Part shown: piece by piece, positions 7,154 through 39,823 of the stretch
Layout: every line of letters begins with the position of its first letter
Position numbering within the stretch: position 1 is the first letter of the stretch
Source of the DNA: a virus
IMG/VR virus record: IMGVR_UViG_3300017598_001230
Coordinates: 1-43,787 of that record
DNA length: 43,787 bases
Reading direction: 5' to 3' (one strand)
Notes under the pieces: model-generated
What the model saw: only the letters and a program-made list of their open reading frames with translations
The model's database searches: none
What the model was told of the DNA's origin: nothing
Translations under genes and position numbers: made by a program

Positions 7154-7167
7154 AGAATGGGAGATAA

Positions 7168-7341
7168 ATGAACAATCTCATAGACAATATATTTAATTTA
7201 CCAAGGGACCTTGGCGCCTGGGTTGTATACCATATCTCAAGATGGTTTAACCTGGGCGTATCCATAGATGAAGAAGACCCCTTCGAATCAATTTTCAGAG
7301 AGTTAGAGGATGTTGACGTAGACGAAATCGAAGATTGGTAA
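7168..7341 (+). CDS. Small acidic protein, unknown
   Basis: A 57-residue ORF with ATG at 7168 and TAA at 7339-7341, preceded by GGGAGA. The first 35 residues are amphipathic and aromatic (DLGAWVVYHISRWF), and the last 22 are strongly acidic, ending in DEIEDW. It fills the gap between the fibre gene and the glycan cassette, 14 bases after the former and 27 before the latter. The coding quality is plausible (good ribosome site, no in-frame alternatives) but no family is recognised. It might be a small chaperone or adaptor for the fibre; that is only a guess from position. Confidence 0.55.
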   Translation: MNNLIDNIFNLPRDLGAWVVYHISRWFNLGVSIDEEDPFESIFRELEDVDVDEIEDW

Positions 7342-7368
7342 TCTACTATTTAAGAAAAGTTTAAGAAA

Positions 7369-9450
7369 ATGATCCCGATAGTATATCCATTCAAGCAGCA
7401 AAATGCTAAATGGGAGGAATTGAGGTATTCTATTCGTTCCATTGAAAAGCATTTTAAGTCCCCCTACCGTATTGTCATCATAGGTGACAAGCCCTCCTGG
7501 ATCAATAAAGATGCTCAAATAATACCCTTTCAATGGTTCAAACTTAGATCTGGTAGTACTCGAAATAAGAACTCCAACATCAACATGAAGTTCATAGTAG
7601 CATCTCAGCTTTTCGATGAATTTATTTGGATTGCAGATGATCAATACATCATCAAGGATATGTCTATTGATGATTTCAAAGGAAAGGTTCACTATGCCGA
7701 GCATTTAGTTGACTGGGCAAGGCCTACGAGTGGTACATCCCAATGGCAGGAACGACTATGGGACACAATCGATCATTTTAGATATTTGAAGCTCCCACTT
7801 TATAACTCGGAATGCCACTCCCCAATGTATGTTGACTCCTCCATAGTCCTGGATCTTCTAAATATGATAACTTTGGCCAAGGGTGACTATCTGTGGAAAT
7901 TTGCATATGGCAACTTTTACATTGAGAATGGGGCGGAGCCGGTTCCAGTCAATAAAGCAAATTTCTATGGAAACAACCAACCTTTCGAGGATATCGAATC
8001 ATCAGATTTCCTCGGTCACAATGATTCCGGGCTATGCTTAGATTTAGCTAAGAAAATTAAAAATCTTTTTCCCAAGCCAAGCAAGTATGAGGCAGAGGAT
8101 CCTCCAGAGAATGCTGAACGTTTAGTCCACCCGAGAAGCTTGGCGGATCTAAAGGTTACTCGGCATCGTAGAATTCGTGAAGAATTCGAAGGGAGAGTGC
8201 TCGCTGAACCCAATAAAATATTCGGGATCGGCATGCCTCGGACTGCAACTGTTTCTCTGACATCAGCGGTTAAGATGTTGGGACTCAAAGCTATTCATTA
8301 TCCCAACTCATTGAACAAAATGCAGGACCATGACTTTGGTGCGGACATTCCGATAGCTGCATCATTTGAAGAGCTGGATAACCTTTATCCCAACAGCAAA
8401 TTTATTCTAACTCGAAGGGATAGACTATCCTGGTTGGCAAGTTACTCCAAACATCTAAAGAGGCGGGAAGTACATGACAAGAAAATCTCTATCAATAGAA
8501 ATAAGACAGTCAATCATTGGAGGGAAAAATTATATGGGACCTCTGAATTAACTCTTCCGATCGTGGATCGAGCCTATGATGATTTTCACTTGAGAGTATT
8601 CGAGTATTTCAAGGATCGTTCCCAGGATCTCTTTCAAATGCATATTTGTGAGGGAGATCACTGGCCTAATCTATGTGGATTTCTCGATAGACGAAATCCA
8701 GGTGGAACCTTTCCTCATAAGTCTCTCAATTATGGTTTGCCTGAAATGTCTGCAGATCCAGAACTGAGTGAGTATTTAGCCACCCGAAACTCTCGGACAA
8801 TTAGAACGTGTGGTTTAATGTCAGTCCATAATTTCCCGATGACCTTGGAATGTCTACAGGACCTTGTGGATAGAGTAGATCATATAACCCTTTGGCTTGA
8901 TTATATAGAGGAATATGGAGGCGCCGGCGATCCAGAACTTTATACATGGTGTGAAAATCTCCTGGTAGAATCTGGCGTTCGATATCAGATTTTAAGGGCC
9001 ACAAGACATTGGAATAGATGGACGTTCCGAGAGGAATTGATCAGATCCTTGGATTCAATCCGTCCGGACATCGTTATATTCCCTGACTCGGATGAAAAAA
9101 TGGGTGAGGGATTCGATGCAGAGCTTGAAGAATTCAAGAATGATCCAAATGTAGTCATGAATTTAATGCCATATAAGATGATCACCAACGATGGGAGAAG
9201 TGTGCAGAAAAATCCCAAAGCTCGACACTGTAAAGTATTTAAATGGGAGCCCGGCATCACGTATCAAGACCTCCCAGGCACATTCCAAAAAGGATATAGA
9301 GGTACAGCGATTCCGAATATTCCAGCTTATCCGATACCAAAACGGAGAACTCGATGTTTCCATACGAGAACAACTGTGGATCATTATTGCTACTATACTC
9401 CTGAGTTGGAAAAGGTACATAGAGCTAATAGGGAGTGGCGCGGTGAATGA
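7369..9450 (+). CDS. Three-domain glycan enzyme: glycosyltransferase, sulfotransferase, glycosyltransferase
   Basis: A 693-residue protein that looks like three enzymes in one chain. Residues 1-250 start with a Rossmann-like beta strand and contain FIWIADDQYII (about 84-94), a DDx metal/nucleotide-sugar motif like those in capsule-type glycosyltransferases. Residues about 282-450 are a P-loop sulfotransferase: FGIGMPRTATVSLTSAV is the 5'-phosphosulfate loop and KFILTRRDRLSWLASY the 3'-phosphate loop, closest in style to the Sulfotransfer_4 type. Residues about 470-690 resemble a GT2-like A fold with IRPDIVIFPDSDEKM, giving a DSD motif. The next gene starts inside its last codons (8-base overlap). 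Expected role: building and sulfating a glycan. Confidence 0.72.
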   Translation: MIPIVYPFKQQNAKWEELRYSIRSIEKHFKSPYRIVIIGDKPSWINKDAQIIPFQWFKLRSGSTRNKNSNINMKFIVASQLFDEFIWIADDQYIIKDMSIDDFKGKVHYAEHLVDWARPTSGTSQWQERLWDTIDHFRYLKLPLYNSECHSPMYVDSSIVLDLLNMITLAKGDYLWKFAYGNFYIENGAEPVPVNKANFYGNNQPFEDIESSDFLGHNDSGLCLDLAKKIKNLFPKPSKYEAEDPPENAERLVHPRSLADLKVTRHRRIREEFEGRVLAEPNKIFGIGMPRTATVSLTSAVKMLGLKAIHYPNSLNKMQDHDFGADIPIAASFEELDNLYPNSKFILTRRDRLSWLASYSKHLKRREVHDKKISINRNKTVNHWREKLYGTSELTLPIVDRAYDDFHLRVFEYFKDRSQDLFQMHICEGDHWPNLCGFLDRRNPGGTFPHKSLNYGLPEMSADPELSEYLATRNSRTIRTCGLMSVHNFPMTLECLQDLVDRVDHITLWLDYIEEYGGAGDPELYTWCENLLVESGVRYQILRATRHWNRWTFREELIRSLDSIRPDIVIFPDSDEKMGEGFDAELEEFKNDPNVVMNLMPYKMITNDGRSVQKNPKARHCKVFKWEPGITYQDLPGTFQKGYRGTAIPNIPAYPIPKRRTRCFHTRTTVDHYCYYTPELEKVHRANREWRGE

Positions 9451-21713: not shown

Positions 21714-22804
21714 TAAAATATTTAGTAGAAAGATTCCTATCCTGCAAGAACCCTTTTAAGACACTTCCTCTTTATATAGGCTTTAGTCTTATCCTATGGG
21801 CATTCTATTTTTTCGCTATTCAAAAACCAGGACATACTTTCGGCTTAGCATATCTAATGCATGAGATCTTTGAAGTCATCTCATTTGTAAGTGTGTCCGT
21901 ATTCATTTGGATATTCAAACAATATAGGACTCTCAATCCACTTCCTGTAGAGGAGGATGAATCCCTGGCTCAGATTGAATCCTTGACGGATAAATTAATC
22001 GAGAGGGATGAGTCCATTCAGAAATCAAAAGAGATGCTCCAAATAATATTTGATTCGGTTCCCATCCGGATCTTTTGGAAGAATCCAGATTTAAAGTATG
22101 TGGCTGTGAATAAGGCATTTGCCCTGGATGCGGGATTAAGTCATCCATCTGAAGCTATCGGGAAATCAGACCTCGAACTCCCCTGGGCGGATAAGGAAGC
22201 TTCAGTTTATCGCAGATCTGATAGACAAGTAATCGATACTAACGAAGCTATTCTGCACACCCGCGAGCCCCAAACACGAGCGGACGAATCAAAAGCTACC
22301 ATTAGCTCTTCTAAAGTACCTCTCCATGGGGCGGATGGAAATATCATAGGTGTCCTTGGACTCTATGAGGATATAACCAAACAGATTCAACAAGAAAAAG
22401 AGTTAGCCCTGAGTCGCAAGAAGTGGAGAGACTTTTTCAAGAATTCTCTTGTAGGAATGTATCAAGCCAGCTTTGAAACTTTCGAGATCATGGAATGCAA
22501 TCAAGAGGCAGCACACATTTTCGGGTACAAGTCACCAGAGGAAGTCATAGGCACTTTATTATCTGATCGATATAAGGATGCAGTTGGTCGAGATAAGATT
22601 TTTGACATCATACTTACTCAAGGGCATATCCGAGATTTAGAATGTTTGATGCTGCGGAAAGATGGATCCCCAATCTGGATTCGAGCTCACATCTTTCTAT
22701 ATAGAGAAGAAGGTTTAATTGAAGGTGTATTCACGGATTTCTATCCGAAACAACCCGAATGTCCAGAGGAGATCAAAAATGGCAGACTTCAAAAAAGCAT
22801 TTGA
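21710..22804 (+). CDS. Membrane protein with two PAS domains, inside the lysis cassette
   Basis: A 364-residue protein starting at ATG 21710, which overlaps the holin-like stop as ATGA; a longer frame from 21635 lies in the holin gene and lacks a ribosome site. Domains: two membrane spans at about 20-37 and 52-69, a charged helix at 85-108, PAS 1 at about 107-225 ending in the PAC-type VLGLYEDITKQIQ, and PAS 2 at about 240-345 ending in EGVFTDF. No histidine kinase, GGDEF, HTH or phosphatase domain follows. PAS domains sense small ligands, redox, light or mediate dimerisation. Its 3' end overlaps the endolysin gene by 26 bases, so the three genes are one translational unit. Likely a regulator of lysis (inference). 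Confidence 0.85.
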   Translation: MIKYLVERFLSCKNPFKTLPLYIGFSLILWAFYFFAIQKPGHTFGLAYLMHEIFEVISFVSVSVFIWIFKQYRTLNPLPVEEDESLAQIESLTDKLIERDESIQKSKEMLQIIFDSVPIRIFWKNPDLKYVAVNKAFALDAGLSHPSEAIGKSDLELPWADKEASVYRRSDRQVIDTNEAILHTREPQTRADESKATISSSKVPLHGADGNIIGVLGLYEDITKQIQQEKELALSRKKWRDFFKNSLVGMYQASFETFEIMECNQEAAHIFGYKSPEEVIGTLLSDRYKDAVGRDKIFDIILTQGHIRDLECLMLRKDGSPIWIRAHIFLYREEGLIEGVFTDFYPKQPECPEEIKNGRLQKSI

Positions 22805-23360
22805 ACATACAATGGCTCACGAAGGCGGATACGTGGATGATCCCACGGATCGCGGAGGGGAAACCTTCATGGGCATCGCTCGTAACTTCCATTCTGAATG
22901 GGCTGGTTGGGACATCATCGATTCGAAGAAAGCGGATTCTACTTTCCCTAAATGTCTTCATCAGACGGCAGGTCTAAAGCAATGTATCAGAGATTTCTAC
23001 AAGCAACATTTCTGGAATGTTTGGGCTGGGGACATGTTTGACGATCAAGCAGTAGCAACCGAGATGTTCGACACTGCAGTAAATATGGGAGTCTCAAGGG
23101 CTGTGAAGTTTCTACAGTCAGCTCTCAACGCCCTGAATCGCGACGGCCGGCTTTATCCGGACCTAACCGTTGATGGAAAGTCCGGCAGGAAAACGCTCAA
23201 TGCGTTAGATAAGCTCGAAGCCAAACCCGGAGATACAGATCTTCTGTATAAGATGCTGAATGTTCTCCAGGGTGCCCATTATTTAAAGATAATGGCTAAC
23301 AACTCATCCCAAGAAAAATACGCCAGAGGTTGGTTCAAAAGAGTGTCATTATCCAAGTAA
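22779..23360 (+). CDS. Endolysin, GH108-type muramidase with C-terminal peptidoglycan-binding domain
   Basis: A 193-residue lysozyme-like endolysin. The N-terminus contains HEGGYVDDPTDRGGETFMGI, the GH108 signature with catalytic Glu at residue 15. Residues about 100-190 fit the PG_binding_3-type domain (FDTAVNMGVSRAVKFLQ, then LTVDGKSGRKTLNAL). It cleaves the glycan strands of peptidoglycan. There is no signal peptide or SAR anchor, so access to the periplasm should depend on the holin-like gene. The start at 22779 is chosen because AGAGGAG ends 7 bases upstream and the family begins here; an upstream in-frame ATG at 22719 lies inside the PAS gene. Confidence 0.9.
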   Translation: MADFKKAFEHTMAHEGGYVDDPTDRGGETFMGIARNFHSEWAGWDIIDSKKADSTFPKCLHQTAGLKQCIRDFYKQHFWNVWAGDMFDDQAVATEMFDTAVNMGVSRAVKFLQSALNALNRDGRLYPDLTVDGKSGRKTLNALDKLEAKPGDTDLLYKMLNVLQGAHYLKIMANNSSQEKYARGWFKRVSLSK

Positions 23361-23381
23361 TCGACCCCTGAATAAACCAAT

Positions 23382-23417
23382 AGCCCATCCCAAACTATAT
23401 AAAACTTGAGATGGGCT
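23382..23417 (+). terminator. Possible hairpin after the lysis genes
   Basis: AGCCCATC (23382-23389) and GATGGGCT (23410-23417) form a perfect 8-bp stem with a 20-base AT-rich loop. It lies 20 bases after the endolysin stop and there is no U-run after it, so it is a weak candidate for a terminator or RNA-processing site. The loop holds ACTATATAAAACT, which also resembles a -10 or a T4-late-like box; either reading is tentative. Confidence 0.35.
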
Positions 23418-23441
23418 GTCCTACGAGAGGGAGACACTAAC

Positions 23442-23615
23442 ATGGATACAGACGAAGTAGTCCTTGAGGTATCATTCAATCACGAAGCAGCAGTATCCTT
23501 CAGAGACATTCTGTTGCTGATAGACCATGAGAACGCCAGCCCACCTCAGATCGAATTCATAGAGTATTGCATCACCAAGATAAATAATGTGTGTGGCAAA
23601 GAAACCATGCAATAA
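23442..23615 (+). CDS. Small protein, unknown
   Basis: A 57-residue acidic protein starting at ATG 23442, preceded by GAGAGGGAGA. A longer in-frame start at 23406 would lie inside the hairpin and lacks a ribosome site. The sequence is predicted to be a small alpha/beta protein (VVLEVSFNHEA, then a helix RDILLLIDHEN) with no recognised motif. It is the first gene after the lysis region and precedes the helicase gene by 12 bases, so it may belong to the replication block. Confidence 0.6.
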   Translation: MDTDEVVLEVSFNHEAAVSFRDILLLIDHENASPPQIEFIEYCITKINNVCGKETMQ

Positions 23616-23627
23616 CCCTGAGGCAAC

Positions 23628-25430
23628 ATGACACTCCAATCGGCACAGATGAAAGCTGCTTCCACTCTGGTGGAAAAGCGGGAGACCAATGATTTATGGC
23701 AAACGTTCTCCCTGGTACGACTCCCAGAGCTGCGGGACGAGATCAACCTTTACAACTTCCAGCAGTACGCCATATACAAATCCCTAAACCAACCCGTGTT
23801 CATCATGGGAATGCAGACCGGTTTAGGTAAGACCCCCTGCAGTTTAGCAACCTACTTTTATTACTGTTCGAAATACCCTGGTACCAAGCTAATCGTTGTG
23901 TGCAATAAGTCGGCTACCCTCCAGTTCAGATCAGAGATAGACAAATTCTTTGATCATGACAAGAGAGTACTTGCTATGCATCAGCGCATGCCGAAGCTTG
24001 GGGCTAAGACATACCCTAATGCTCGGAAGAATGCCCTCGAGATGTTTGCTGATACAGAGACCAATCAAAAGCTGGATGCCATGATAATGAACTATGCAAT
24101 ATTCCGGCTGGAGCATGAAACTATCAAGAAAGCTTGCGTGGGTATCCGGACAGCAGGAAAGCATTTATTTGTGATCTATGATGAGTGTACGGCCTTTGCC
24201 AACTTCCATAAGACGCATCGAGCAGTGAAGTCCATTTCTACCATTGCTAATAGGGCCCTGGGTACAACTGCCACTATGACGAAGGGCAAGCTCGAACAGA
24301 TATACGGCATCTTCTCTGGAATGAATATGCAGCTTTATCAAACTAAGAGACATTTTGAGGATGCCCATTGCATAGTTTGGCGCCATCCTAAGCGCCCATA
24401 TATCACCAATGTTTCGGGTTATAAGGATGTGGGCACGTTCGTTGATAAGATCAAGCCCGTTTCGATCGTTCTCAAGAAATCCGATGTTGCCTCCCAGCTG
24501 CCGGCCTTTACGGTCAAGAGAGAATACTTGGAGCACTCCAAAGAGCAGATCCGGATGATCACGGACATCTATTCCGGCCACTTTGATGTCGCCAACTATG
24601 AGGAAGACCCTGATTTCGCCTACACTATCGAGGAAGTAAAGGATAATCCATTCGCGGATACAGAGCTCGATCCTGGATCGGAGGAATGGGACGGACGTCA
24701 GATAGTCCATGCAATCACATCCACCGGCTTTATAAAGATGGCCTTGCTGGATCACAACTGCGTCCTACGTAAACCCAATATCAAGCAACACTCTCCGAAG
24801 ACAGAGCGCATCCTTGAGATGCTACAGGAGGAGTTCACGGATGAAAAGATAGTCATCTATACCCATTCCCGAAGATATTTGGTACTCCTGGCTGAAACCA
24901 TCGCCAAGTTCAAGGCTACTCCATCAAAATATAAGAACGTCCTCATGATTCATGGCGGCATATCTGAAAAGCTACGACAGGAAGGAATGGATCTTTTCTC
25001 CAACTCAGACATGCACAACATCATATTAATCAATAGAGCTGGTCTGGAATCGATCAACCTCCAGGCGGCCAATACAATCATTTGCACTACACTCCCGGCA
25101 TCTGGTGGTGATCTGATCCAACTTGCTGGACGCATATCCCGAATCAATACAGAGCATACCGCCCTCTTCATGATTTATCTCCTGATGGAAGATTCCCAGG
25201 ACGAGGATGAATATCTAATCGATAATGAACAGATGGCCATCACCTCTCCAATCCTCGGTGAAGCGGAGCAAGGGCTCATAGACTGGGACTATCTCCGAGA
25301 GAAGAAATCCCGTAACCTGCCCGATGTCATATCTAAGGCGGAGTATCAAGAGAAGTCCAAAACTTACCATATTCTTTCAAAGAGAAAGAAACGCGCGCAG
25401 AAATATTTAAACAAACTGATAAAGGCATAA
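23628..25430 (+). CDS. Superfamily 2 DNA helicase (SNF2/UvsW-like)
   Basis: A 600-residue SF2 ATPase. Motif I (Walker A) is MGMQTGLGKTPCSLA at about residues 58-72 after a Q-motif-like FQQYAIYKSL. Motif II is YDECTAFA near 185, a DE-C-T variant of DExx. Motif III is LGTTATM. The second RecA lobe has VIYTHSRRYLVLLAE, LINRAGLESINLQAAN and motif VI QLAGRISRIN near 497-506. The order matches SNF2-like or UvsW-like helicases that remodel branched DNA in phage recombination-dependent replication. It lies at the head of the replication block. The C-terminal 40 residues are basic (RKKRAQKYLNKLIK), fitting DNA binding. Confidence 0.88.
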   Translation: MTLQSAQMKAASTLVEKRETNDLWQTFSLVRLPELRDEINLYNFQQYAIYKSLNQPVFIMGMQTGLGKTPCSLATYFYYCSKYPGTKLIVVCNKSATLQFRSEIDKFFDHDKRVLAMHQRMPKLGAKTYPNARKNALEMFADTETNQKLDAMIMNYAIFRLEHETIKKACVGIRTAGKHLFVIYDECTAFANFHKTHRAVKSISTIANRALGTTATMTKGKLEQIYGIFSGMNMQLYQTKRHFEDAHCIVWRHPKRPYITNVSGYKDVGTFVDKIKPVSIVLKKSDVASQLPAFTVKREYLEHSKEQIRMITDIYSGHFDVANYEEDPDFAYTIEEVKDNPFADTELDPGSEEWDGRQIVHAITSTGFIKMALLDHNCVLRKPNIKQHSPKTERILEMLQEEFTDEKIVIYTHSRRYLVLLAETIAKFKATPSKYKNVLMIHGGISEKLRQEGMDLFSNSDMHNIILINRAGLESINLQAANTIICTTLPASGGDLIQLAGRISRINTEHTALFMIYLLMEDSQDEDEYLIDNEQMAITSPILGEAEQGLIDWDYLREKKSRNLPDVISKAEYQEKSKTYHILSKRKKRAQKYLNKLIKA

Positions 25431-27693: not shown

Positions 27694-29154
27694 ATGAAAA
27701 GTATTTTAAAGTCCTTCATACTTTACCCTTCACCTAAGAAATGGGCTGAGTATCAACACTCGTATAACTCCTATTTCAAAGGCCGAGAAGCTCTGTACGA
27801 TGATACTCTGAAATTCATTCAAGATTTCTGGAACCAGTTCGACGTATTCCCGGGGTGGAATGTCTTTCAAAAGGAACTGGCCTCCTCCAATGAAATCAAG
27901 CTCTCAGGATATCTATCGGGCATAATAGATGACCCCGCAATCAACGCCTTCGAGCAAGACGATGACTTTCTCGGTCACCTTGTATTCCTTGAGAAGACTT
28001 ATTTCGAGACCGACCTATACAAAACCATTCAAGAGCTACAGACATCTTTAGCTGGACTGGAAGGCAAGGACCTTGAAGCAATCCTAAGTAAGACCGATGA
28101 CTTCCTAACTGAGTTTCACAGGATCAAGAATAATGTAACCAGAGCTGAAGCGGGAACATCAGCCCTGGTTTATGGCGAGCAAGCCATACAAGACCTCCGG
28201 AGAATGTACGCTGAGATCGAGGAGAAGAAACATAACGACGAATCACTATTCTATGATCTCGGATTCAAAGCTTTCGAGAAGGTCCAGATGAAAGGTGGGG
28301 ATTTAGTCCTCATCGGCGGCTTTACTTCTCAATGTAAATCGGTCTGGCTACGATGGCTGATTTATCGAATGCTCACTGAATATGGTCTTAATTGTGCGAT
28401 GTTCTCATTTGAGATGTCCTATGAAGTCATTCGGATCATGTTCGCGATACTCCATGCCAATAACAAGGATGTATTCCCTGGAACTCCCATAATATCATAT
28501 GAGAAGTTTAAAACGGGTGAGCTCACAGATGAGGAGCAGGACTTCCTATTCAATATCGCCAATGAAGACTTCATCAATAATCAGAACTATGGGACTCTAT
28601 ACATCGAGAAACCCAATAAGTCAAAATACAGGCTGCACGATTTAACCTCTAAGGTCGCAGAACTTGAGGCGGCAGTCATGCCGGTCCATGTCGTCGGGGT
28701 CGATTACCTAAGCTTAATGTATCCGCTGGATACCGATAGGGGATCTCCGGATAATGATGACTACAACCAACTAATCAAGAACTTTAAAAGCTGGTGCCTA
28801 TCCCACCGTGGTAGAGATGGCGACGTATCACCCATCCTGGGTATGAGTCCCTGCCAGATTTCCAGAAAGGGGTATGAGGACGCTGTCAAGAACGATAACT
28901 TCTACGAGCTGACTGCCCTAAAGAAATACTCAGAGCTCGAGACATCGGGAGACGTTATTCTCACCAGTTTATTTACTCCAGAGATGCGCCAATCAATGCA
29001 GGTCAAACTCCAGAACTTGAAGAACAGGGATGGAGCCGTTGTGATTGAACCTGTGGATCTTCATTGCGATCTGACTGGTGGGTACGGAATCTCCGAACTT
29101 GAATCAAGAACTGAGGAAGAGATCGTTGAAACACTACAAAGTTTAGATATTTAG
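27694..29154 (+). CDS. Replicative DNA helicase, DnaB-like
   Basis: A 486-residue RecA-fold helicase of the DnaB/T4 gp41 type. The N-terminal 140 residues are helical. The core from about residue 190 includes KGGDLVLIGGFTSQCKS (about 200-216), the Walker A position; VFSFEMSYEV-like FSFEMS near 236; and VVGVDYLSLMYP near 334, the Walker B strand. It should unwind DNA at the fork as a hexamer. The P-loop reads CKS instead of GKS/GKT, an unusual substitution. The gene starts right at the loader stop with AAAGTAT spacing, and is followed 8 bases later, with GGAGG, by the deaminase. Confidence 0.85.
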   Translation: MKSILKSFILYPSPKKWAEYQHSYNSYFKGREALYDDTLKFIQDFWNQFDVFPGWNVFQKELASSNEIKLSGYLSGIIDDPAINAFEQDDDFLGHLVFLEKTYFETDLYKTIQELQTSLAGLEGKDLEAILSKTDDFLTEFHRIKNNVTRAEAGTSALVYGEQAIQDLRRMYAEIEEKKHNDESLFYDLGFKAFEKVQMKGGDLVLIGGFTSQCKSVWLRWLIYRMLTEYGLNCAMFSFEMSYEVIRIMFAILHANNKDVFPGTPIISYEKFKTGELTDEEQDFLFNIANEDFINNQNYGTLYIEKPNKSKYRLHDLTSKVAELEAAVMPVHVVGVDYLSLMYPLDTDRGSPDNDDYNQLIKNFKSWCLSHRGRDGDVSPILGMSPCQISRKGYEDAVKNDNFYELTALKKYSELETSGDVILTSLFTPEMRQSMQVKLQNLKNRDGAVVIEPVDLHCDLTGGYGISELESRTEEEIVETLQSLDI

Positions 29155-31729: not shown

Positions 31730-32117
31730 TAACTATAATGAATTTTTAGCGTCAGCCTTATGGAAAGCTATCAAGGCTCAAATAAGGGGACGTTCTAAGA
31801 GAGTCTGTGAGTTTTGCAGGTACAATAGGTCATACGCAGTTCATCACAGGTACTACTCCAAATCAGGTTGGGGTAAAGAGGATCTCCGGGATCTGATGGA
31901 CGTGTGCAAAACCTGCCACGACTTTATCCACGGATACCCGCACCCTGCCAAACTAATTGCATTGCCAGGGAGCCCGGCTTTAACTGGAGATACTGGATGG
32001 ACCTCAGTAGCCCAGGTGCCTGATCATTGGATGTTAGACCCGAGCTATCAAGTTTGGATCAGAGAAACGCTCCCTCTCATATATCCTAAATTTGGATTCC
32101 ATATTGCGAGGCAATAA
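31710..32117 (+). CDS. HNH endonuclease-like protein
   Basis: A 135-residue protein beginning at GTG 31710 (GGGAGA 7 bases upstream), overlapping the HAD gene by 20 bases. Residues 33-74 form an HNH-type zinc finger: CEFC (33-36), VHH (44-46), then VCKTCHDFIHG (66-75). This is the arrangement of phage HNH nucleases and of some homing endonucleases. The N-terminal 30 residues are basic (KAIKAQIRGRSKR), fitting DNA contact. The C-terminal half is Pro/Trp-rich and unassigned. It may nick phage or competitor DNA. It lies 1.9 kb upstream of the split polymerase. Confidence 0.7.
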   Translation: MRNQAFNNYNEFLASALWKAIKAQIRGRSKRVCEFCRYNRSYAVHHRYYSKSGWGKEDLRDLMDVCKTCHDFIHGYPHPAKLIALPGSPALTGDTGWTSVAQVPDHWMLDPSYQVWIRETLPLIYPKFGFHIARQ

Positions 32118-32299
32118 TGACAAAGAATAAGAAAGGTTACGTATGTGGCGATTGTCAAGAGCATAACGGCAGGCATTGCAAGAACAAGAAAAGTGATCAT
32201 TATGGTCATTTCGTTGCTCACAACCATCCCGCCTGCCGCTCCAAGGTATTAACTGCCAAAGCTATTTATGTAGGTGATCATGGAAAGAAAACAGTATAA
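32117..32299 (+). CDS. Cys/His-rich mini-protein
   Basis: A 60-residue basic protein with C10 and C13 (CGDC), C20, His residues through the middle and C39, giving a plausible zinc or nucleic-acid-binding fold. It starts on the last base of the HNH gene stop (TAATGA). No family recognised. Its end overlaps the next mini-gene by 20 bases. Confidence 0.5.
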   Translation: MTKNKKGYVCGDCQEHNGRHCKNKKSDHYGHFVAHNHPACRSKVLTAKAIYVGDHGKKTV

Positions 32300-32823: not shown

Positions 32824-32988
32824 ATGAATCATACAGATAAGAAGATGATCAATGCTATCCTGTCCAGAGTTGCTGCAGGTGTATGGAGAGAGAATGGTCA
32901 ATGCGCATTCTGCTTAATACATAGGCAAAATGAGCACGATCATCAGGATTGGTGCCCAACGAAGATGGCAAAGGATCTCCGTGCATGA
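32824..32988 (+). CDS. Zinc-finger mini-protein
   Basis: A 54-residue ORF from ATG 32824 (GGAG upstream) to TGA 32986-32988. It has CAFC (27-30), H33, two further His and C44, suggestive of a zinc knuckle (CxxC plus His/Cys), after an N-terminal helix. The stop overlaps the next gene start as ATGA. No family. Confidence 0.5.
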   Translation: MNHTDKKMINAILSRVAAGVWRENGQCAFCLIHRQNEHDHQDWCPTKMAKDLRA

Positions 32989-33575
32989 GCAATCTGTTTG
33001 ATGATTTTGGAATCGATCTCGAGTCGACGACATGTACTTTCCATGGCGTCCCTGTTGGTGAAAAGAAAGCCATATCATGTGGCGACGAAATTACCGACAT
33101 CGAGTTCCTAAAAAACTATGAGCGCATATCCATGCGAGCGCGTCAGTCCGATTTCTTTCAGAATCTATCCACAGCGTACCTGAATAAATGCTACGAGATA
33201 AGTCAGAAGAAAGGTAAGTTCTCATACATTTGTGTCCGATGTTTCAAATCAATCAACAATCATCAGAAGCTGGTCGAGGAGCAACACTCTCACTTGCTTT
33301 ATGGCAAGGATTGCTATGGGACTATCCACAGAAGGCAGTCAAATTTAGCATATAGTTGGGAGAACGGAGTTCCAGTATTTCAAACGCAGCAAGAGCTCCA
33401 GACATTCGAGTGTACTTCCTGCAGTCGGAAGTTCCCAGCCCGGGCAGGTAATGTGCCTCACTGCGGAGAGAATCCACGATGCTGCTTTTGCTGTACATAT
33501 AACACTTTAAAGTATAAAGGGATCCGATGTCCATTTGAACTGAAATTTGGAATCCCATATGGAAAGGGCCCATGA
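32985..33575 (+). CDS. Cys-rich protein, unknown
   Basis: A 196-residue protein starting at ATG 32985; the frame opens earlier at 32949, but 32985 overlaps the preceding stop as ATGA. The N-terminal half is helical and acidic; the C-terminal half has several CxxC pairs: YICVRCF, FECTSCSRKF and PRCCFCCTY, with HCGENP between, so two or three zinc or iron-sulfur sites are likely. It ends with an ATGA overlap with the polymerase gene, so the two are co-translated. No family recognised; coupling to a polymerase gene suggests a replication accessory. Confidence 0.55.
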   Translation: MSNLFDDFGIDLESTTCTFHGVPVGEKKAISCGDEITDIEFLKNYERISMRARQSDFFQNLSTAYLNKCYEISQKKGKFSYICVRCFKSINNHQKLVEEQHSHLLYGKDCYGTIHRRQSNLAYSWENGVPVFQTQQELQTFECTSCSRKFPARAGNVPHCGENPRCCFCCTYNTLKYKGIRCPFELKFGIPYGKGP

Positions 33576-35233
33576 AGGAAGGAAATCTTTTAGAAGGTGT
33601 TTTAGCTAATACGGCCGACGAGGACGAGATTTATAAATTCTTAGTCGATATGCCCAAGCATAAAGAGGATCATCCGTTCCCATCGATACCCCCGAATCCG
33701 TCCACTTTCTCCAAAGAAGCACTTGCAGCCAGACAGGATATGGAATGGCTTCACGCGGTAGACATGGTCTTGTACTATCCAGACAGTCCTCAATTAGAGG
33801 ACCAGGGGGTACAATTGAATACACTCAAAGATAATTTAAAGACAGAGTGCATTCAATTGCCCCAAGGGTTCTGTCCGGCATTTCCGGAGGGCTACAATGA
33901 ATATGTCCTGGCTCTGGATACAGAAACTACTGGACTCGACACCAGGATCCTTTATGACTACGATGGAAATCTGATTATCAAGACTCAAATCGTTGGAATC
34001 TGTCTGGCGCCCAACGAAAATAAGGGCTACTACCTTCCCGTTCAACACACTGGCGAAGATGGTATACCTAACTGGGATCCACAGGTCATGAACTCATTTC
34101 TGGATGAGCTCCATGAAGAATTCACGATGATCTATCACAACGCTCAGTATGACCGCGAGATAATGGCAATCAACGGCGTGACTAAGTTGCGACCGTGGCC
34201 CTACTTTTTCGACACACAGCTCCTGGATTTCTTTCTCGATGTCAATAATAAAGCCCACGGATTGAAAGCAGTATCCGCTAAGCTTGCTGGTAGGAAGATG
34301 ATTGAGATCGGTGAGCTATTCGTTGAATCAGGACTCTTCAAGAAAGCAGATTTAAAGCACATCAATATCACTTTCGATCGACTGCCGGCCACTAACGCCT
34401 ATGTATACGGTGCCTCCGATGCTACAAATACATACGCCATCTTTAAGCACTATGCATCCCTGCCAGAAGAAAGGAATATGTTCTTTAAGGAATCGGTCCC
34501 GCTAACAGTGGATCACAGGAACTCAGACGTTCTCCGGAATATGTATCGCATGGGGCTGCCGGTAAACTTTGATTATTACATGTGGGCAGGTAAAGACGCC
34601 ATCTTTAGAAAACACGCACTCGAGAAAGCCATTTATGAGTACATCGGCCGACACTTTGACATCGGGTCCCCAGCTCAACTATCGAAGCTCCTATTCGAGG
34701 AGTATAATATCCCGGTCCTCCCAAATATGAAGAGAGGCAAGCCCACGAAGGCTAATCCGGATGGACTCTACTCGACAGCAGAGGATGTCCTTGACGCACT
34801 GCAAGAGAAATTTCCGGAATATATAATCTTGAACTATGTAGTCCAGTATCGCAAACTCGGAAGCATCCTGGGCAAGATATTATTGAAGTGTTTATGCAAT
34901 TCTTATGTTGACGCGCTGGTTCCCAACACGAGGGTTTTCTTGCAATATAATCAAACCATCATTCCTACCGGTCGCCTTGCATCAAGCTCGAGCAACGGGA
35001 AGGAACGAGTCACAGTAAAGGAATCGGCTAAGACTGGTAGAGTAACTTATCGACACGCATCAGGAGCGTGGTCATGTGGCTTTAACTCTCAAGGGATCAA
35101 CAATCCCCGCTACAAGCTGTCGAAGGCTAAGAGAATTAAAAAGATAAATGAGGATACGGCTGGAGTGAACCTCCACGATCCGTATCCTAAATTCGTTAGG
35201 GATGAGTTGGTCAAGAACTGTTCCTTCATATGA
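33572..35233 (+). CDS. DNA polymerase I-like, part 1: 3'-5' exonuclease and thumb
   Basis: A 553-residue protein with the N-terminal part of a family A DNA polymerase. Exonuclease motif I is LALDTETTGLD (about residue 114-124), motif II is IYHNAQYDRE (about 188) and motif III is YGASDATNTYAIF (about 280), all with the acids in place. The following thumb region has VVQYRKLGSILGKIL and the PolA TGRLASSS (about 467), with GINNPR at the place of the conserved LQNIP. The frame ends before palm motif A. Motif A is on the 35443 ORF, and motifs B and C are on the 36198 ORF. The last 40 residues are charged. Confidence 0.88.
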   Translation: MKEGNLLEGVLANTADEDEIYKFLVDMPKHKEDHPFPSIPPNPSTFSKEALAARQDMEWLHAVDMVLYYPDSPQLEDQGVQLNTLKDNLKTECIQLPQGFCPAFPEGYNEYVLALDTETTGLDTRILYDYDGNLIIKTQIVGICLAPNENKGYYLPVQHTGEDGIPNWDPQVMNSFLDELHEEFTMIYHNAQYDREIMAINGVTKLRPWPYFFDTQLLDFFLDVNNKAHGLKAVSAKLAGRKMIEIGELFVESGLFKKADLKHINITFDRLPATNAYVYGASDATNTYAIFKHYASLPEERNMFFKESVPLTVDHRNSDVLRNMYRMGLPVNFDYYMWAGKDAIFRKHALEKAIYEYIGRHFDIGSPAQLSKLLFEEYNIPVLPNMKRGKPTKANPDGLYSTAEDVLDALQEKFPEYIILNYVVQYRKLGSILGKILLKCLCNSYVDALVPNTRVFLQYNQTIIPTGRLASSSSNGKERVTVKESAKTGRVTYRHASGAWSCGFNSQGINNPRYKLSKAKRIKKINEDTAGVNLHDPYPKFVRDELVKNCSFI

Positions 35234-35418
35234 TTAAAATAAGATGTTTGAATTGTTGTTTCTATTGGCCAGATGTCAAGGCATGCGCTTTCAACGAGAA
35301 GCCCGAGTTTATAGGCTACTCTGAAGCACAATGGTGGGGTCTCTGTGTGACTTTCAAGCTCAGACGCTCTGAGGCCTCCGATATCCTGGCAGCTAAGGAA
35401 CGATTAAGACGAATCTAA
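35230..35418 (+). CDS. Cys-rich mini-protein between polymerase parts 1 and 2
   Basis: A 62-residue protein whose start ATG overlaps the end of polymerase part 1 (ATGA). It carries CLNCCFYW (residues 6-13), C19, and a C-terminal helix rich in Arg and Lys (RSEASDILAAKERLRR). It has the style of a small metal-binding protein. It occupies the first break in the polymerase gene. Unknown function; no homing-endonuclease motif. Confidence 0.5.
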   Translation: MIKIRCLNCCFYWPDVKACAFNEKPEFIGYSEAQWWGLCVTFKLRRSEASDILAAKERLRRI

Positions 35419-35442
35419 AACCAGCTATATAAATTTAAGCCA

Positions 35443-36051
35443 ATGGAAAATACACCACCAGAAATTGAGCTCCTCCCTGATTTCGAGGACCAACGTCCAT
35501 ATCTCATAGGATCGCCCAGACAGTTCTACGCTAATCAGGGCGATATATTTTGCCTCCGAGCAACCTGTGACGACTGCCCTCACTTCAACGATGGCTGCGA
35601 GCATGAGGAAGAAAAGATCCAGGTAGATATCATCCCTCATGCTCGACGAGGTATCGGTACCGAACTAATCCCCTTTCTAATCCTCCGACTCAAGAAAGAT
35701 CTTAACTTTACCGTCGATGTGCCCGAGGATTTATGGAACCATGACAGGGATCCATTCTCACTTGATGAACGGAACCTCCACTTTCTACTTTCAGATCAGA
35801 AGCACAAATTTAGAGTCATGAAAGGTCAATTCCGGTACTATGGATCCAAGGAAGAATTTGACGCCTCTCCATACGCCGAATATTTCGACTACTGGGATGA
35901 ATTCATACCACAGCATTACGTAGTCGCAATCGATTACAGCGCCATCGAGCCCAGAGTAACTACTTTAGCGTCCCGGGAGCCATTATATGTTGAGGTTTTC
36001 AAGGGAGTCCCGCGGCCGGTCGTTCGAGAGGTCGAGATCGATGATTCCTAA
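35443..36051 (+). CDS. DNA polymerase I-like, part 2: palm motif A
   Basis: A 202-residue protein. Near residue 160 it has YVVAIDYSAIEPRV, the family A motif A (DYSQIELRV in E. coli Pol I) with the metal-binding Asp. The preceding WDEFIPQH matches the strand before motif A. The N-terminal part holds a Cys cluster, CLRATCDDCPHFNDGC, C37, C42, C45 and C52, plus a beta-rich region of unknown origin. The frame ends about 30 residues after motif A, before motif B. No clear ribosome site; AT-rich CTATATAAAT lies upstream. It starts 25 bases after the mini-gene 35230. Confidence 0.8.
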   Translation: MENTPPEIELLPDFEDQRPYLIGSPRQFYANQGDIFCLRATCDDCPHFNDGCEHEEEKIQVDIIPHARRGIGTELIPFLILRLKKDLNFTVDVPEDLWNHDRDPFSLDERNLHFLLSDQKHKFRVMKGQFRYYGSKEEFDASPYAEYFDYWDEFIPQHYVVAIDYSAIEPRVTTLASREPLYVEVFKGVPRPVVREVEIDDS

Positions 36052-36211
36052 ATTCAAACCCGGTGATCGGCTGACAGCTATATTTTCAGAAGCTCGTATC
36101 CGAATCATAGGAGTTTCAAAGACTCATTACATTATCAGGTTTATCGGTGGGAAGGAATTAGTCACCTCATGGCCACACCACGGAGTAGAGAAGGATTATG
36201 AAATTTCCTGA
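36041..36211 (+). CDS. Mini-protein between polymerase parts 2 and 3
   Basis: A 56-residue protein from ATG 36041, with GAGAGG upstream, overlapping the end of part 2 by 11 bases. It is beta-rich (KFKPGDRLTAIFSEARIRI, HYIIRFIGGKELV), resembling a small SH3-like or OB-type barrel. No motif for nuclease or intron mobility. It fills the second break of the polymerase gene and its end overlaps the start of part 3 by 14 bases. Confidence 0.5.
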   Translation: MIPKFKPGDRLTAIFSEARIRIIGVSKTHYIIRFIGGKELVTSWPHHGVEKDYEIS

Positions 36212-37352
36212 GTACATAGAGAATCACGAAGGTAAGAAATACTGTGTCTTAATCGGTGAGCTTGACAAGGTCCTGTTCAACGAGGATCAATGCTCTGGCT
36301 GCTCCATCAAGGACAGATGCACCATCCTTTTCGAGATCTATAAGAATTGCCCGGGTGACTGGCATTCACTAAACGCTGAAGGTTTCTTTTCGGAAGACTG
36401 GACCAACGAGAAAGATAAATATGAGAGGAAAGCCATGCGTGGTGTATCCAAGGTTTGTGGTCTGGCCCTAACCTACGGCGGCAGTTCCTACACTTTATCC
36501 AGCAATATGAAATGCTCCCAGGACCTTGCTCAGGATCGAATCGATGCTTTCTTTGCCAAGCTGACAACTCTCAATCAGTACATGATCAATACAAAGAGGC
36601 ACGTATTAGAGACTGGTCAGGTATTCAATCTGTTCGGACGCCGGCGAGATATGTCCAAGTGGGCTTTCAGTAAGGCTGCAACGTATAAGCAAAGGAGAAG
36701 GGATGCAGGGTACGCCGAGAGAACTGGACTGAATCACCCAATCCAATCCACCTCCGCTGAGATCCTAAAGATTGCCATGATTCGAGTGGATGAATGGATC
36801 GAGAAGCAAGGGCTCAACCCACTTTATGGAACTCATCCTCCATACCACATCGATTTAAAACAAACCACCTATCGGGACTTCCTGGTACATATGTTGACAT
36901 CGGTACATGATGAGCTGGACTACTATCTAAGAGAGGATCAGTTTGAAGAATTAATCCCTGAGATATACCAGATAATGCAGATCAAGGACGTCATGCAATC
37001 CTTCGAACTGGGTTTCGATCTCGAGCTGGACGTTGAATATTCGGATTCCAGAGCGTTTACATCCTCCAAACTATATCCGGCTGCCAAGATATTCCTGCTC
37101 CTCAAACTGAAATCCTCGGACATGGAAACTGAAACAGAGCCCAACACCCTCATGCTTCAATTTGAGGACGTGAACGAAGACCTCCTAAATCATCTAAGCG
37201 CATTCGAGGGCGGCGACGTTGCAGATGAAAAACTTTGGTCAATCGGGGTCGAATCTGGTGACCAACTTTATTTCCACCCTAATCGGTTTCCCGAAGAATA
37301 TTTCAAATCCCTAAAAGGTAAATATCGAAAAATATATATCGAGGGGATGTGA
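36198..37352 (+). CDS. DNA polymerase I-like, part 3: fingers motif B and palm motif C
   Basis: A 384-residue protein. Residues 32-51 hold another Cys cluster (C32, C35, C41, C51) before GDWHSLNA, the PolA D.H..TA region. Motif B follows: RGVSKVCGLALTYGG, with Arg81, Lys85, Leu89 and Tyr93 in the positions of E. coli Arg754, Lys758, Phe762 and Tyr766. LNHPIQSTSAEILKIA matches the conserved N.p.Q.taadi. Motif C is TSVHDELDYYL near residue 235-245. About 100 extra residues follow motif C. GAGAAGG lies upstream of the start. Together with parts 1 and 2 it would complete a polymerase. Confidence 0.88.
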   Translation: MKFPEYIENHEGKKYCVLIGELDKVLFNEDQCSGCSIKDRCTILFEIYKNCPGDWHSLNAEGFFSEDWTNEKDKYERKAMRGVSKVCGLALTYGGSSYTLSSNMKCSQDLAQDRIDAFFAKLTTLNQYMINTKRHVLETGQVFNLFGRRRDMSKWAFSKAATYKQRRRDAGYAERTGLNHPIQSTSAEILKIAMIRVDEWIEKQGLNPLYGTHPPYHIDLKQTTYRDFLVHMLTSVHDELDYYLREDQFEELIPEIYQIMQIKDVMQSFELGFDLELDVEYSDSRAFTSSKLYPAAKIFLLLKLKSSDMETETEPNTLMLQFEDVNEDLLNHLSAFEGGDVADEKLWSIGVESGDQLYFHPNRFPEEYFKSLKGKYRKIYIEGM

Positions 37353-37399
37353 TACAAAGCGCATGGAAAACTCGGACTGTCACGGCAAAACGGCTTTCG

Positions 37400-37431
37400 A
37401 AACCTGTGGGCGGCACCCACAAAAGAGGTTT
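37400..37431 (+). other. Nested hairpin in the region before the sigma-like genes
   Basis: AAACCT pairs with AGGTTT (37400-37405 with 37426-37431), and inside it GTGGG pairs with CCCAC (37406-37410 with 37416-37420) closing a CGGCA loop, with AAAAG as a one-sided bulge. It lies 48 bases after polymerase part 3 and just before two-box copy E. No long U run follows, so it could be a terminator without a strong tail, an RNA-processing site or a small structured RNA. The 215-base gap 37353-37567 holds no gene. Confidence 0.45.
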
Positions 37432-37435
37432 CTGT

Positions 37436-37471
37436 GAATTTCTCTCCACAACAAACGAATATATATTGTAT
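37436..37471 (+). promoter_or_regulatory. Two-box element, copy E
   Basis: GAATTTCTCTCC begins at 37436 and CGAATATATATTGTATC at 37456, with the same 20-base offset as the other copies. Unlike A-D it is not preceded by a stop codon directly, but it lies in the only large gene-free region and 24 bases ahead of the consensus sigma70 -35. It suggests that the sigma-like genes have two promoters. Confidence 0.55.
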
Positions 37472-37494
37472 CTGAAAAATATCTAAAAATTATA

Positions 37495-37523
37495 TTGACA
37501 TCCCTGTAGGGGTGTGATATAAT
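37495..37523 (+). promoter_or_regulatory. Consensus sigma70 promoter
   Basis: TTGACA (37495-37500), a spacer of exactly 17 bases, then TATAAT (37518-37523) with an upstream TG one base before (extended -10). Both boxes match the E. coli consensus at all positions. The spacer contains the short palindrome CCCTGTAGGG (37502-37511), a possible operator between the boxes. The transcript would begin about 37530 and carries GGGAGGT before ATG 37568. It should be read by the host polymerase early in infection. Confidence 0.85.
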
Positions 37524-37567
37524 AAAGATAGTAACCAGACAAATATAATTCAAGGGAGGTACGGCAC

Positions 37568-38332
37568 ATGACGACTAAAGAAATTTTCCTTTCCGAATTA
37601 ATCGATGACAACGATGTACTCAAGGCCCTGGTTGACGATGACGCCGAAAAGAACCATCCTAAAAAGCAACGCATTTACCAAGTCCCAATTCCAGAGGATC
37701 TGAAATTTCACCACACCCCCGAAAGTATCAATACTTTCATCGAAAGATTGTATCCGAATATGAAATTTTATATTCTATGTCGGACTCGGGACCCTCAGAA
37801 TGTGGACAACATCATCAACAACTTTGTCCTGTATATGCTGGACAACAATAAAAAGGGACAACCCCGGTACACGATGTATGATCCCATCAGATACCCAGGT
37901 CAACCCTACTACCGATGGTTCATCTCGAATCTCCGATATTTCTGGCTCTCATATCGCCAGCAATTAATCAAGGATCAATTCAAGGTCACCTTGTCTGAAA
38001 CCGATTATGAATCGACTGCTGGATCCCCAGCTAATAATGCAGCTCATATTGATATTGTTTCCATGGATAACTTGCAAGAGCCGCCAGACTCCATATTTTT
38101 CATATCGGAATTGATCGAGTGGTTGCGGAATTTCAGTAGCAAACATTCTGATTTTCATTGTTTCGAGGCCCATGCATTTGATTTGTTCAAATCCCGCATC
38201 GAAGGTGAGGAGAACAATAAATTTGCAGAGCGGATGAAGATCTCTCCTTCTGCCGCCAGCCAATGGAACCTCAAACTGAAAAAGCTTGTCACCAAATATC
38301 TGGAAGGTGATTCCGAATACGCAACTGCATAG
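37568..38332 (+). CDS. Sigma factor-like protein 1
   Basis: A 254-residue protein with the outline of a small sigma70-family (ECF-like) factor. Residues about 75-145 have the region-2 type pattern (NNFVLYMLDNN, then PYYRWFISNLRYFWLSYR, where helix 2.3-2.4 would contact the -10). A hydrophilic linker is followed by a C-terminal region-4-like helix-turn-helix at about 208-245 (NKFAERMKISPSAASQWNLK). It has the best host-type promoter of the window and GGGAGGT as ribosome site. Probable role: switching host RNA polymerase to phage promoters, possibly the two-box elements. The call is by pattern and could also be a DNA-binding regulator. Confidence 0.6.
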   Translation: MTTKEIFLSELIDDNDVLKALVDDDAEKNHPKKQRIYQVPIPEDLKFHHTPESINTFIERLYPNMKFYILCRTRDPQNVDNIINNFVLYMLDNNKKGQPRYTMYDPIRYPGQPYYRWFISNLRYFWLSYRQQLIKDQFKVTLSETDYESTAGSPANNAAHIDIVSMDNLQEPPDSIFFISELIEWLRNFSSKHSDFHCFEAHAFDLFKSRIEGEENNKFAERMKISPSAASQWNLKLKKLVTKYLEGDSEYATA

Positions 38333-38350
38333 CTGATATAAAGATAATAG

Positions 38351-38386
38351 AACGGGGAATATGATAACTAATATTCCCCGTTTTGC
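38351..38386 (+). terminator. Rho-independent terminator
   Basis: AACGGGGAATAT (38351-38362) pairs perfectly with ATATTCCCCGTT (38371-38382) around an 8-base loop, followed by TT and G. A 12-bp stem with G-C core and a T tract (TTTT at 38381-38384) is a strong intrinsic terminator. It lies 18 bases after the sigma-like 1 stop and before the sigma-like 2 ribosome site, so the two genes are separately terminated or attenuated. Confidence 0.85.
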
Positions 38387-38398
38387 GTTGGAGGACGT

Positions 38399-39823
38399 AT
38401 GAATACATTTTTAAGATTAAAGATGGATCAATTCGCTAATTTAGTAAAGAAAGGTCAGGTTCTGGCCTATTTTGGCGACAACTTAAGAGATATCAACGGA
38501 TCCCAGGTCGACAATGGTTTCTATGCCGTTAACACTTGCTCAATCCGGAGATCTTACAATAAAGCGGATGCACAATCCCCGCACATTTATGGGTTAGAAC
38601 TTTCCCAAGTTGCTTGGCATGACTCTGGTTGGAAAGCTACTCCGATCACTCATACCGTTGAGTTGAGGCGAGAAGGTCTAAATGATCATTTCTGCATTCA
38701 ATATCCGGGCGCCGCGGTAGCTGCAGAAACGTTCATCAAGGAACTGATCAAGGACGTTTTCAAGAAAGCTGGCAGAATCGAGGATTTCGATGAGTCCATC
38801 GACTATGATCGAATTTTCGGTGGTATGGCTTTCAAGCTTATCCGCAAGAACCCCTTCGACATCAACGAGGACGACAGGGTCGATATGATCCATGACGCCT
38901 TGCTACAGGTCATCAATAAGAAAACGGTCAAGAAGTATGACGCCAAGAAAGACATCGTTAAATTCTTTGGCGGAATGTTTCAAAAGAGGATGATTGACCA
39001 GCTCCGAGCCTATACTACTCGTAGGGTTAGAGAGAAAGAGCTGCAGCAAAAAGAAGACTTCACTCAGGAAGAGACTCAAGAGTATCTCCGGAATAAAGTC
39101 GATGCTCCCAAACAGGAATCTCCGCAGGACGAGATTGAATTCAGAGAGCTTCAGGATGGCCTCCTTAAGTTCCTCATGAAACAGCGGGATGGTGACTGGC
39201 AGCGCAAGCTTTGGGTCGGTCTGATGAAGGGAATGTCCAACAAAGAGATCGCAGAACAACTCGACGTATCTCCAGCGTTTATTACTAAGAAGCTCAAGAA
39301 TCTCCAGGGGTATGTACTGGAATTTGCCGATTCTACAGACAACGATCTGTTGGCTGACTTGATGAAGCAAATGGGCGGACGCCGCAGGTCTCAGGACCTA
39401 TTTGAGGCAAAGGACGATGAAGCAACCCTTTTATTTAAGATCTTCAAGAAATACAAGAAAGTTGTGGGTCACACTCACAAGCCGGCTGGATCCATTTCTA
39501 AGGTCCTCAAGAAAAATTACGCTGATCACGAATCCTATGACTACATCGTCGGTCGGATTCTGGATAGCAATGTAACTACTTCTCAATTCCAATCCGAACT
39601 GGATACTTTCTTTGATGAACTGGAAGCTATGGACGATCTCATCGAAGAAGGTGACCGCCTAACTGGATTGAAGGTAATTACTAATCTGGACGATCAAGGC
39701 CAACCCAAGAGGGAGGGAGCTGTTGAGGTTCGCACAATCAACCCAGGCGGCCGAGACCTAACTGATGATGCCTTCTACAAGGACATTTTAAAAAAAGATA
39801 CGAACGATAATACCAATGAATAA
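38399..39823 (+). CDS. Sigma factor-like protein 2
   Basis: A 474-residue protein. Residues about 159-215 have a sigma region-2-like pattern (DRVDMIHDALLQVINK, then KDIVKFFGGMFQKRMIDQLR and RRVREKEL), and residues about 276-305 form a sigma-4-like helix-turn-helix (MSNKEIAEQLDVSPAFITKK). The N-terminal 130 residues and the C-terminal 150 residues are extra; the latter is acidic and Lys-rich. GGAGG precedes ATG 38399 right after the terminator. It may be a second, longer sigma factor or an anti-sigma-like regulator, similar to the late sigma gp55 of T4 in role (not in sequence). The region-4 pattern is clearer than in the previous gene. Confidence 0.65.
   Translation: MNTFLRLKMDQFANLVKKGQVLAYFGDNLRDINGSQVDNGFYAVNTCSIRRSYNKADAQSPHIYGLELSQVAWHDSGWKATPITHTVELRREGLNDHFCIQYPGAAVAAETFIKELIKDVFKKAGRIEDFDESIDYDRIFGGMAFKLIRKNPFDINEDDRVDMIHDALLQVINKKTVKKYDAKKDIVKFFGGMFQKRMIDQLRAYTTRRVREKELQQKEDFTQEETQEYLRNKVDAPKQESPQDEIEFRELQDGLLKFLMKQRDGDWQRKLWVGLMKGMSNKEIAEQLDVSPAFITKKLKNLQGYVLEFADSTDNDLLADLMKQMGGRRRSQDLFEAKDDEATLLFKIFKKYKKVVGHTHKPAGSISKVLKKNYADHESYDYIVGRILDSNVTTSQFQSELDTFFDELEAMDDLIEEGDRLTGLKVITNLDDQGQPKREGAVEVRTINPGGRDLTDDAFYKDILKKDTNDNTNE

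Follow-up and report, generated by a model that had tools for sequence, protein, structure and literature searches.

A family A DNA polymerase divided over three viral genes, and a phage clade in which its parts are dispersed

Introduction

The textbook polymerase active site is that of single-chain enzymes such as Pol I, T7 and Taq. Whether such a site can also be put together from separately encoded chains is the question raised by the IMG/VR virus record IMGVR_UViG_3300017598_001230, a stretch of 43,787 nucleotides that is referred to in the following as the window, in which one family A DNA polymerase is divided over three open reading frames (ORFs), p1, p2 and p3. A preliminary description of this DNA had offered two readings of the locus, one being the assembly of three polypeptides in trans, perhaps through metal-bound interfaces, and the other a gene invaded by mobile elements that later lost their mobility.

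The first of these is strongly supported at the sequence level, in that the pieces recur as dispersed genes with the same cuts within one clade, whose members keep the catalytic residues. We consider it very likely that p1, p2 and p3 are three subunits of one family A polymerase, which assemble non-covalently and stem from an ancient gene fission.

The polymerase of the window

All three polymerase ORFs were found where the preliminary description had placed them (Table 1), and its assignments of motif A (IDYSAIEPR), motif B (RGVSKVCGLALTYGG) and motif C (SVHDEL) proved correct in an alignment with nine intact polymerases. It had assigned exonuclease motifs I-III and the thumb to p1, which holds; p1 additionally contains the N-x-Q-G box, so that its end, and with it break 1, lies directly ahead of motif A. 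The 3'-5' exonuclease residues of p1 are D116 and E118 in motif I (LDTET), D194 in motif II (HNAQYD) and D283 in motif III (YGASD), making up the catalytic D, E, D and Y-x3-D set, and the protein matches the Pfam families DNA_pol_A_exo1 (E=2e-8) and DNA_pol_A, the latter over positions 16-127.

The first ~150 residues of p2 are absent from ordinary polymerases and contain a cysteine cluster, C-x4-C-x2-C-x6-C, at amino acids (aa) 37-52; they are followed by motif A, with its catalytic residues D164 and E169, and by the helix after it. No family match was obtained for p2 in Pfam or NCBIfam, and PHROG 17 aligned over motif A below threshold (E=0.13). In p3, the 50-residue lead is followed by PGDWHS and then by the fingers, with a match to positions 178-375 of DNA_pol_A (E=1e-31); it has R-x3-K-x7-Y-G of motif B, N-x3-Q, and H-D-E of motif C.

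The two breaks are filled by small genes, and p1, small ORF 1, p2, small ORF 2 and p3 all lie on the plus strand with starts that overlap or are closely spaced. By codon scores, all segments of the locus, including both small ORFs and the N-terminal region of p2, are coding-like only in their own frame, with the exception of the first 150 nt of p3, which give a near-tie with the minus strand. It is thus hard to see how sequencing or assembly errors in what is, admittedly, a metagenomic record could have broken an intact gene: the parts lie in three different frames with 0.2-0.7 kb of coding-like sequence between them and identical breaks occur in independent contigs, which makes this explanation extremely improbable.

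Relatives carrying the same pieces

The preliminary description had proposed a search of related phage genomes for intact homologues and for alignment of the breaks, and this search returned the pieces, with unchanged borders, as separate, dispersed genes. Two split relatives, G001 (IMGVR_UViG_3300006076_000001, 93.8 kb) and G002 (IMGVR_UViG_3300007102_000020, 62.5 kb), were exposed by a scan of viral contigs for the motif B "YGG" pattern, and two more, G014 (IMGVR_UViG_3300026484_000095, 109.8 kb) and G015 (IMGVR_UViG_3300033151_000560), were added by an exonuclease alignment scan. No confirmed relative came out when p3, a motif chimera or the topoisomerase was used as a single-protein query against the viral collection, nor from one degenerate DNA pattern; a first alignment scan returned distant polymerases only and a genome-contig scan bacterial PolA only, while among cultured phages no match to p2 or to the motif A gene of G014 was found. 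One candidate, L208, was set aside, its polymerase being intact.

In G001, the polymerase is encoded by four minus-strand genes dispersed over 23 kb, and in G014 by four plus-strand genes that span 70 kb and follow one another as A, exo-thumb, B and C, with ~67 kb between the motif A and B genes and pieces up to about 68 kb apart. In G002, the B and C genes are 3.6 kb apart, and in G015 the exo-thumb part is present, cut within exonuclease motif III by a split intein. The p1 protein aligns over nearly its full length with the exo-thumb genes of G001 and G014, p2 matches the motif A gene of G014 including the cysteine cluster and an IPxxRRxIGT box, and homologues of p3 are present in G001, G002 and G014 as a B gene and a separate C gene. 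The relationship extends beyond the polymerase, as G001, G014 and G015 are related in other genes too and the window and G001 share baseplate, helicase, sigma and endolysin genes.

Break 1 falls between the N-x-Q-G box and motif A in the p1 tails of the window, G001, G014 and G015. Break 2 falls between the motif A helix and the GD-x-H ahead of motif B, with p3 of the window and the B genes of G001, G002 and G014 all beginning just upstream of GD-x-H. A similar short helix flanks break 2 on both sides (EPLYVEVFKGVP in p2 and ILFEIYKNCP in p3), a small correction to the preliminary description. The break between motifs B and C is present in G001, G002 and G014 and absent from the window, where p3 holds both motifs.

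This arrangement bears on whether the gaps might be self-splicing group I or II introns with ORFs, the mature mRNA encoding one polymerase. Phage polymerase genes often contain introns, and one has been suggested for a similar gap in phage MEP401 (PMC10580990). There is also a six-base repeat at break 1 that could be taken as a junction: p1 ends in TTC ATA TGA and an in-frame TTC ATA occurs in p2 just upstream of motif A. However, at the gathering threshold Rfam gave no intron for the window or for the stretches of the relatives, and in the locus there was none down to E=1; each gap is coding-like in a frame of its own, and the N-terminal region of p2 is homologous to the stand-alone motif A gene of G014. 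The pieces of G001 and G014 are kilobases apart and out of order, which rules out that they are exons of a single simple transcript in cis. The TTCATA junction is missing from the p1 tails of the relatives, for which reason the repeat is treated here as chance, and splicing of this kind is judged very improbable.

The same repeat could serve a ribosome that leaves p1 at its ATA-TGA stop and lands on the matching, in-frame ATA ahead of motif A. Known ribosome bypasses cover ~50 nt, and the gap of ~0.7 kb is far above that length. Break 2 has no such repeat beyond a weak similarity, p2 and p3 have starts of their own and the relatives lack the repeat, so that bypassing has a close to negligible probability.

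Conservation and phylogeny

Every split member that holds a given piece keeps the catalytic residues checked in it, i.e. D, E, D and Y-x3-D of the exonuclease, D and E of motif A, R, K and Y of motif B together with N-x-P-I-Q, and H-D-E of motif C. These residues are kept although the split members differ at about 65-70% of positions, the path lengths from the window to the other split members being 2.3-3.0 substitutions per column.

Such conservation has to be set against the possibility that the locus is a decaying relic, or that its pieces have other functions (that of a stand-alone exonuclease, for example) and the genome is replicated by a different polymerase. No second polymerase of family A, B or C could be detected in the 43.8 kb window, nor was any other found in G001 or G002, all of them records that may be fragments, so that the absence of another polymerase is not proven. 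The catalytic residues of both active sites are nevertheless kept across long branches, and stand-alone genes for motifs A, B and C have no evident use outside a palm; decay or reassignment of the pieces is accordingly regarded as unlikely.

In a tree of 67 polymerases, built from exonuclease, thumb and fingers columns and with the two exo-thumb fragments of G015 combined into one alignment row, the window, G001, G002, G014 and G015 are monophyletic (support 100/98), with the window branching first. The sister of this split clade is formed by intact large-phage polymerases, including that of the cultured phage Tunturi_5 (support 100/97). A single origin of the split is the simplest reading of this tree, which by itself gives no direction; with the intact sister clade and all the intact outgroups, fission is the natural reading.

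Table 1. Positions of the polymerase pieces, their motifs and the small genes in the breaks
Record	Feature	Positions	Strand	Description
Window	p1	33572..35233	plus	553 aa; N-terminal region, exonuclease motifs I-III, thumb, TGRLAS box, N-x-Q-G box
Window	small gene, break 1	35230..35418	plus	62 aa, ATG start, Cys-rich, ATGA overlap with p1
Window	p2	35443..36051	plus	202 aa; N-terminal region, Cys cluster, motif A
Window	motif A, DYSAIEPR	35932..35955	plus	in p2
Window	small gene, break 2	36041..36211	plus	56 aa, ATG start, overlaps p2 end and p3 start
Window	p3	36198..37352	plus	384 aa; Cys cluster within 50-aa lead, motifs B and C in fingers/palm, C-terminal tail
Window	motif B, RGVSKVCGLALTYGG	36438..36482	plus	R81, K85, Y93 of p3
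Window	motif C, SVHDEL	36900..36917	plus	H237, D238, E239 of p3
G001	exo-thumb	43667-45400	minus	matches p1, E=6e-30
G001	motif A gene	22330-23163	minus	stand-alone
G001	B gene	33819-34661	minus	
G001	C gene	33157-33783	minus	
G002	B gene	6618-7421		
G002	C gene	2384-3025		
G014	motif A gene	38782-39711	plus	matches p2, phmmer E=9e-18
G014	exo-thumb	42430-44226	plus	matches p1, E=4e-43
G014	B gene	107138-107899	plus	
G014	C gene	107886-108458	plus	

Two further features of the relatives touch the polymerase genes. Stand-alone genes for CHC2 primase zinc fingers (150-173 aa) lie near the exo-thumb gene at 2875-3393 of L232 (G014), 8107-8562 of L199 (G001) and 28342-28794 of G015, and the primase may thus be fragmented too. 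In G001, a short acidic tail repeat (ATNIA...ENKEDIEESQE-VSS-like) is shared by four unrelated genes, being found in the tail of the C gene and in the genes at 21781-22329, 70809-71387 and 86923-87591.

The cysteine clusters and the intact sister enzymes

The intact large-phage polymerases (gp5 of Tunturiibacter phage Tunturi_5, XOB77448, and those of contigs L103, L092 and L095) have the same YGG motif B as the window. They differ from the split enzymes in being one polypeptide of 1100-1470 aa, and in having Phe where E. coli Pol I has Phe762, a position at which the split-clade enzymes have Leu (residue 89 of p3). In the intact sisters, an insertion with CLVPxCxTC separates the N-x-Q box from motif A, and when this region was aligned by profile with the motif A proteins of the split members, the cysteine cluster and motif A co-aligned (single-target P=1.3e-4, probability 54%).

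As a similar cluster stands at the same place in the intact sisters, the cysteine cluster ahead of motif A probably predates the split, and break 1 would lie within or beside a cysteine insertion of the sister type. Metal-bound interfaces that came about as a consequence of splitting are therefore not supported, and the idea that the clusters arose newly as interfaces of the split was set aside once the sister enzymes turned out to have a similar one. Several small cysteine-rich proteins of the CxxC type are also encoded nearby, at 32117-32299, 32824-32988 and 35230-35418 of the window.

Origin of the breaks and the small genes

The preliminary description had seen neither an intein nor an intron-encoded nuclease at the breaks of the window, and indeed these contain no intein motif, no Rfam intron and no endonuclease domain. 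Its suggestion of an invasion by mobile elements is plausible as regards the origin of the breaks and finds no support in the small genes now present in them. In G001, an endonuclease-like gene with weak DUF4379 and PvuRts1I-like matches (23150-24001) overlaps the start of the motif A gene, and in G014 another (105886-107145) overlaps the start of the B gene, the latter being assigned by its sequence and its similarity to the G001 endonuclease family, with no confident Pfam match. Together with the split intein of G015, for which the C-terminal splicing model scores 22.0 bits, above its cut-off, and the N-terminal model 21.2 bits, just below it, these genes make homing endonucleases or inteins, followed by loss or rearrangement, a likely though unproven cause of the breaks.

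The small ORFs of the window, on the other hand, show no endonuclease domain and no relation to any mobile element, so that the T4-type arrangement with a homing endonuclease in the break is not seen here. Neither has a family match in Pfam, NCBIfam or PHROG, and no relative of either was detected in G001, G002, G014 or G015. They are probably passengers using translational coupling, though they may have a role in assembly.

Since G015 has a real split intein at exonuclease motif III of this polymerase, with an endonuclease-like gene between the halves, and since an intein lies inside motif A of the intact cousin L140, it could be supposed that split inteins join the pieces into one protein once they have been translated, as in a "fractured gene". 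However, breaks 1 and 2 and the break between motifs B and C have no intein motif in any member, and the ends and starts of the pieces are polymerase-like, lacking an HN/(C, S or T) border, so that there is little to recommend protein ligation, which we hold to be highly unlikely.

Several observations on these elements are recorded here in their own right. The split intein of G015, together with the endonuclease-like gene between its halves (352 aa, PvuRts1I-like match), is located at 5727-8926 of L237, on the minus strand. The intein of L140, an intact large-phage cousin, sits exactly inside motif A (TDY/C...HN/CNVE), and the same arrangement is expected in L118. Another family A polymerase, at 9749-12377 of L219, a huge-phage record of 394 kb, is cut directly ahead of motif A, and the tail of its first ORF is intein-like, with no match to the NCBIfam intein models. 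The gene for the small subunit of ribonucleotide reductase in G001 (36363-38561) has an endonuclease-like region fused N-terminally.

Proposed assembly in trans

In the model proposed here, the exonuclease and the thumb would come from p1; p2 would supply the palm strand and helix of motif A, including one catalytic aspartate, and the other catalytic aspartate would be supplied by p3, along with the fingers, the motif C hairpin and the remaining palm, whereby the Pol I fold would be re-formed. The catalytic palm would thus be drawn from at least two chains, held together by native fold contacts and by the extra segments of p2 and p3. A single fission is envisaged, of an intact large-phage polymerase in which a cysteine-cluster insertion ahead of motif A was probably already present; breaks 1 and 2 would have come first, and the break between motifs B and C later, in the line of G001, G002 and G014. 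That the three proteins are made, assemble and polymerise is what we infer from the sequences.

The core of the p3 model (residues about 55-205, predicted local distance difference test (pLDDT) 69-93) matches the Pol I enzymes of Bst and Klenow, the best match being Bst DNA polymerase I (E=7e-9, query template modelling score 0.41), which supports a Pol I fold for this part. Precedents for working assemblies of split phage enzymes exist as well, as the gp43A and gp43B products of the split gene 43 of Aeromonas phage 25 co-purify with polymerase activity and, in Aeh1, NrdA is fully functional in its split form (PMC2988022).

It has to be noted that several points weigh against this model. The direct match between p2 and the motif A protein of G001 is weak (E about 0.007), and the link is solid only through G014; in those metagenomic records, neither the exonuclease and motif A genes of G002 nor the genes for motifs A, B and C of G015 could be located; the records are possibly incomplete, so that a polymerase outside them may exist; and p2 alone, from a 3-row alignment only, was modelled at a pLDDT of 29, which is uninformative. 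On balance, it is likely, if somewhat less so than the assembly of p1, p2 and p3 as such, that these phages form a lineage with an obligately multi-subunit family A polymerase, the palm of which comes from two to three separately encoded chains, with motif A, motif B and, in most members, motif C on different proteins and with genes up to about 68 kb apart in any order, and which has persisted since the ancient fission.

The significance of such an enzyme would lie in an active site that is apparently cut at two or three points, with its parts scattered over the genome, and that would have retained its function over a long divergence. How finely a polymerase palm can be divided could be tested directly on this clade, and its natural cut points could be used for a split, switchable polymerase. 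It is also a likely example of an essential gene in which fragmentation by mobile elements became fixed. For annotation it carries a warning: with a motif A gene that has no Pfam, NCBIfam or significant PHROG match, such phages seem to lack a working polymerase.

Relation to known systems

The closest known case is that of the Methylophilales phages MEP401 and MEP402 (gp13, gp14 and gp15; OP830906, PMC10580990), whose family A polymerase consists of two ORFs with a small gene of unknown function in the gap, cut just ahead of motif A and thus like break 1, a position that was confirmed here on the MEP401 sequence. It differs from the window in having two pieces only, motif A staying with B and C, and since the MEP401 enzyme is placed on an unrelated branch of the tree, its split is independent of that of the window.

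Splits of other enzymes have been described for gp43A/gp43B of Aeromonas phages 25 and 44RR (family B), NrdA of Aeh1 and the T4 topoisomerase (PMC2988022), all essential enzymes encoded by adjacent genes and working as assembled chains, with a homing endonuclease or intercistronic sequence in the break. Unlike the window clade, these belong to other enzyme families, are in two pieces and show no dispersal over the genome (PMC2988022). In the PolIII alpha of group 2.2 jumbo phages, the catalytic domain is predicted to be split over two distant genes; here the fold is that of family C, there are two pieces and an intact family B enzyme is also present (PMC7824862). A split PolB with an intein is known from MIJ3 (PMC6892783), and the exonuclease split of G015 fits the fractured genes with split inteins of Dassa et al. 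2009, as these are cited in PMC6892783, whereas breaks 1 and 2 and the break between motifs B and C are free of inteins.

The searchable literature yielded no report in which a family A polymerase is spread over three or four genes and has motifs A and B, or all of A, B and C, placed on different chains, and none of dispersed pieces of such an enzyme. A two-gene split of a family A polymerase is already known from MEP401, and its division over three or four genes, in which separate chains carry motifs A and B, and often C, is to our knowledge new.

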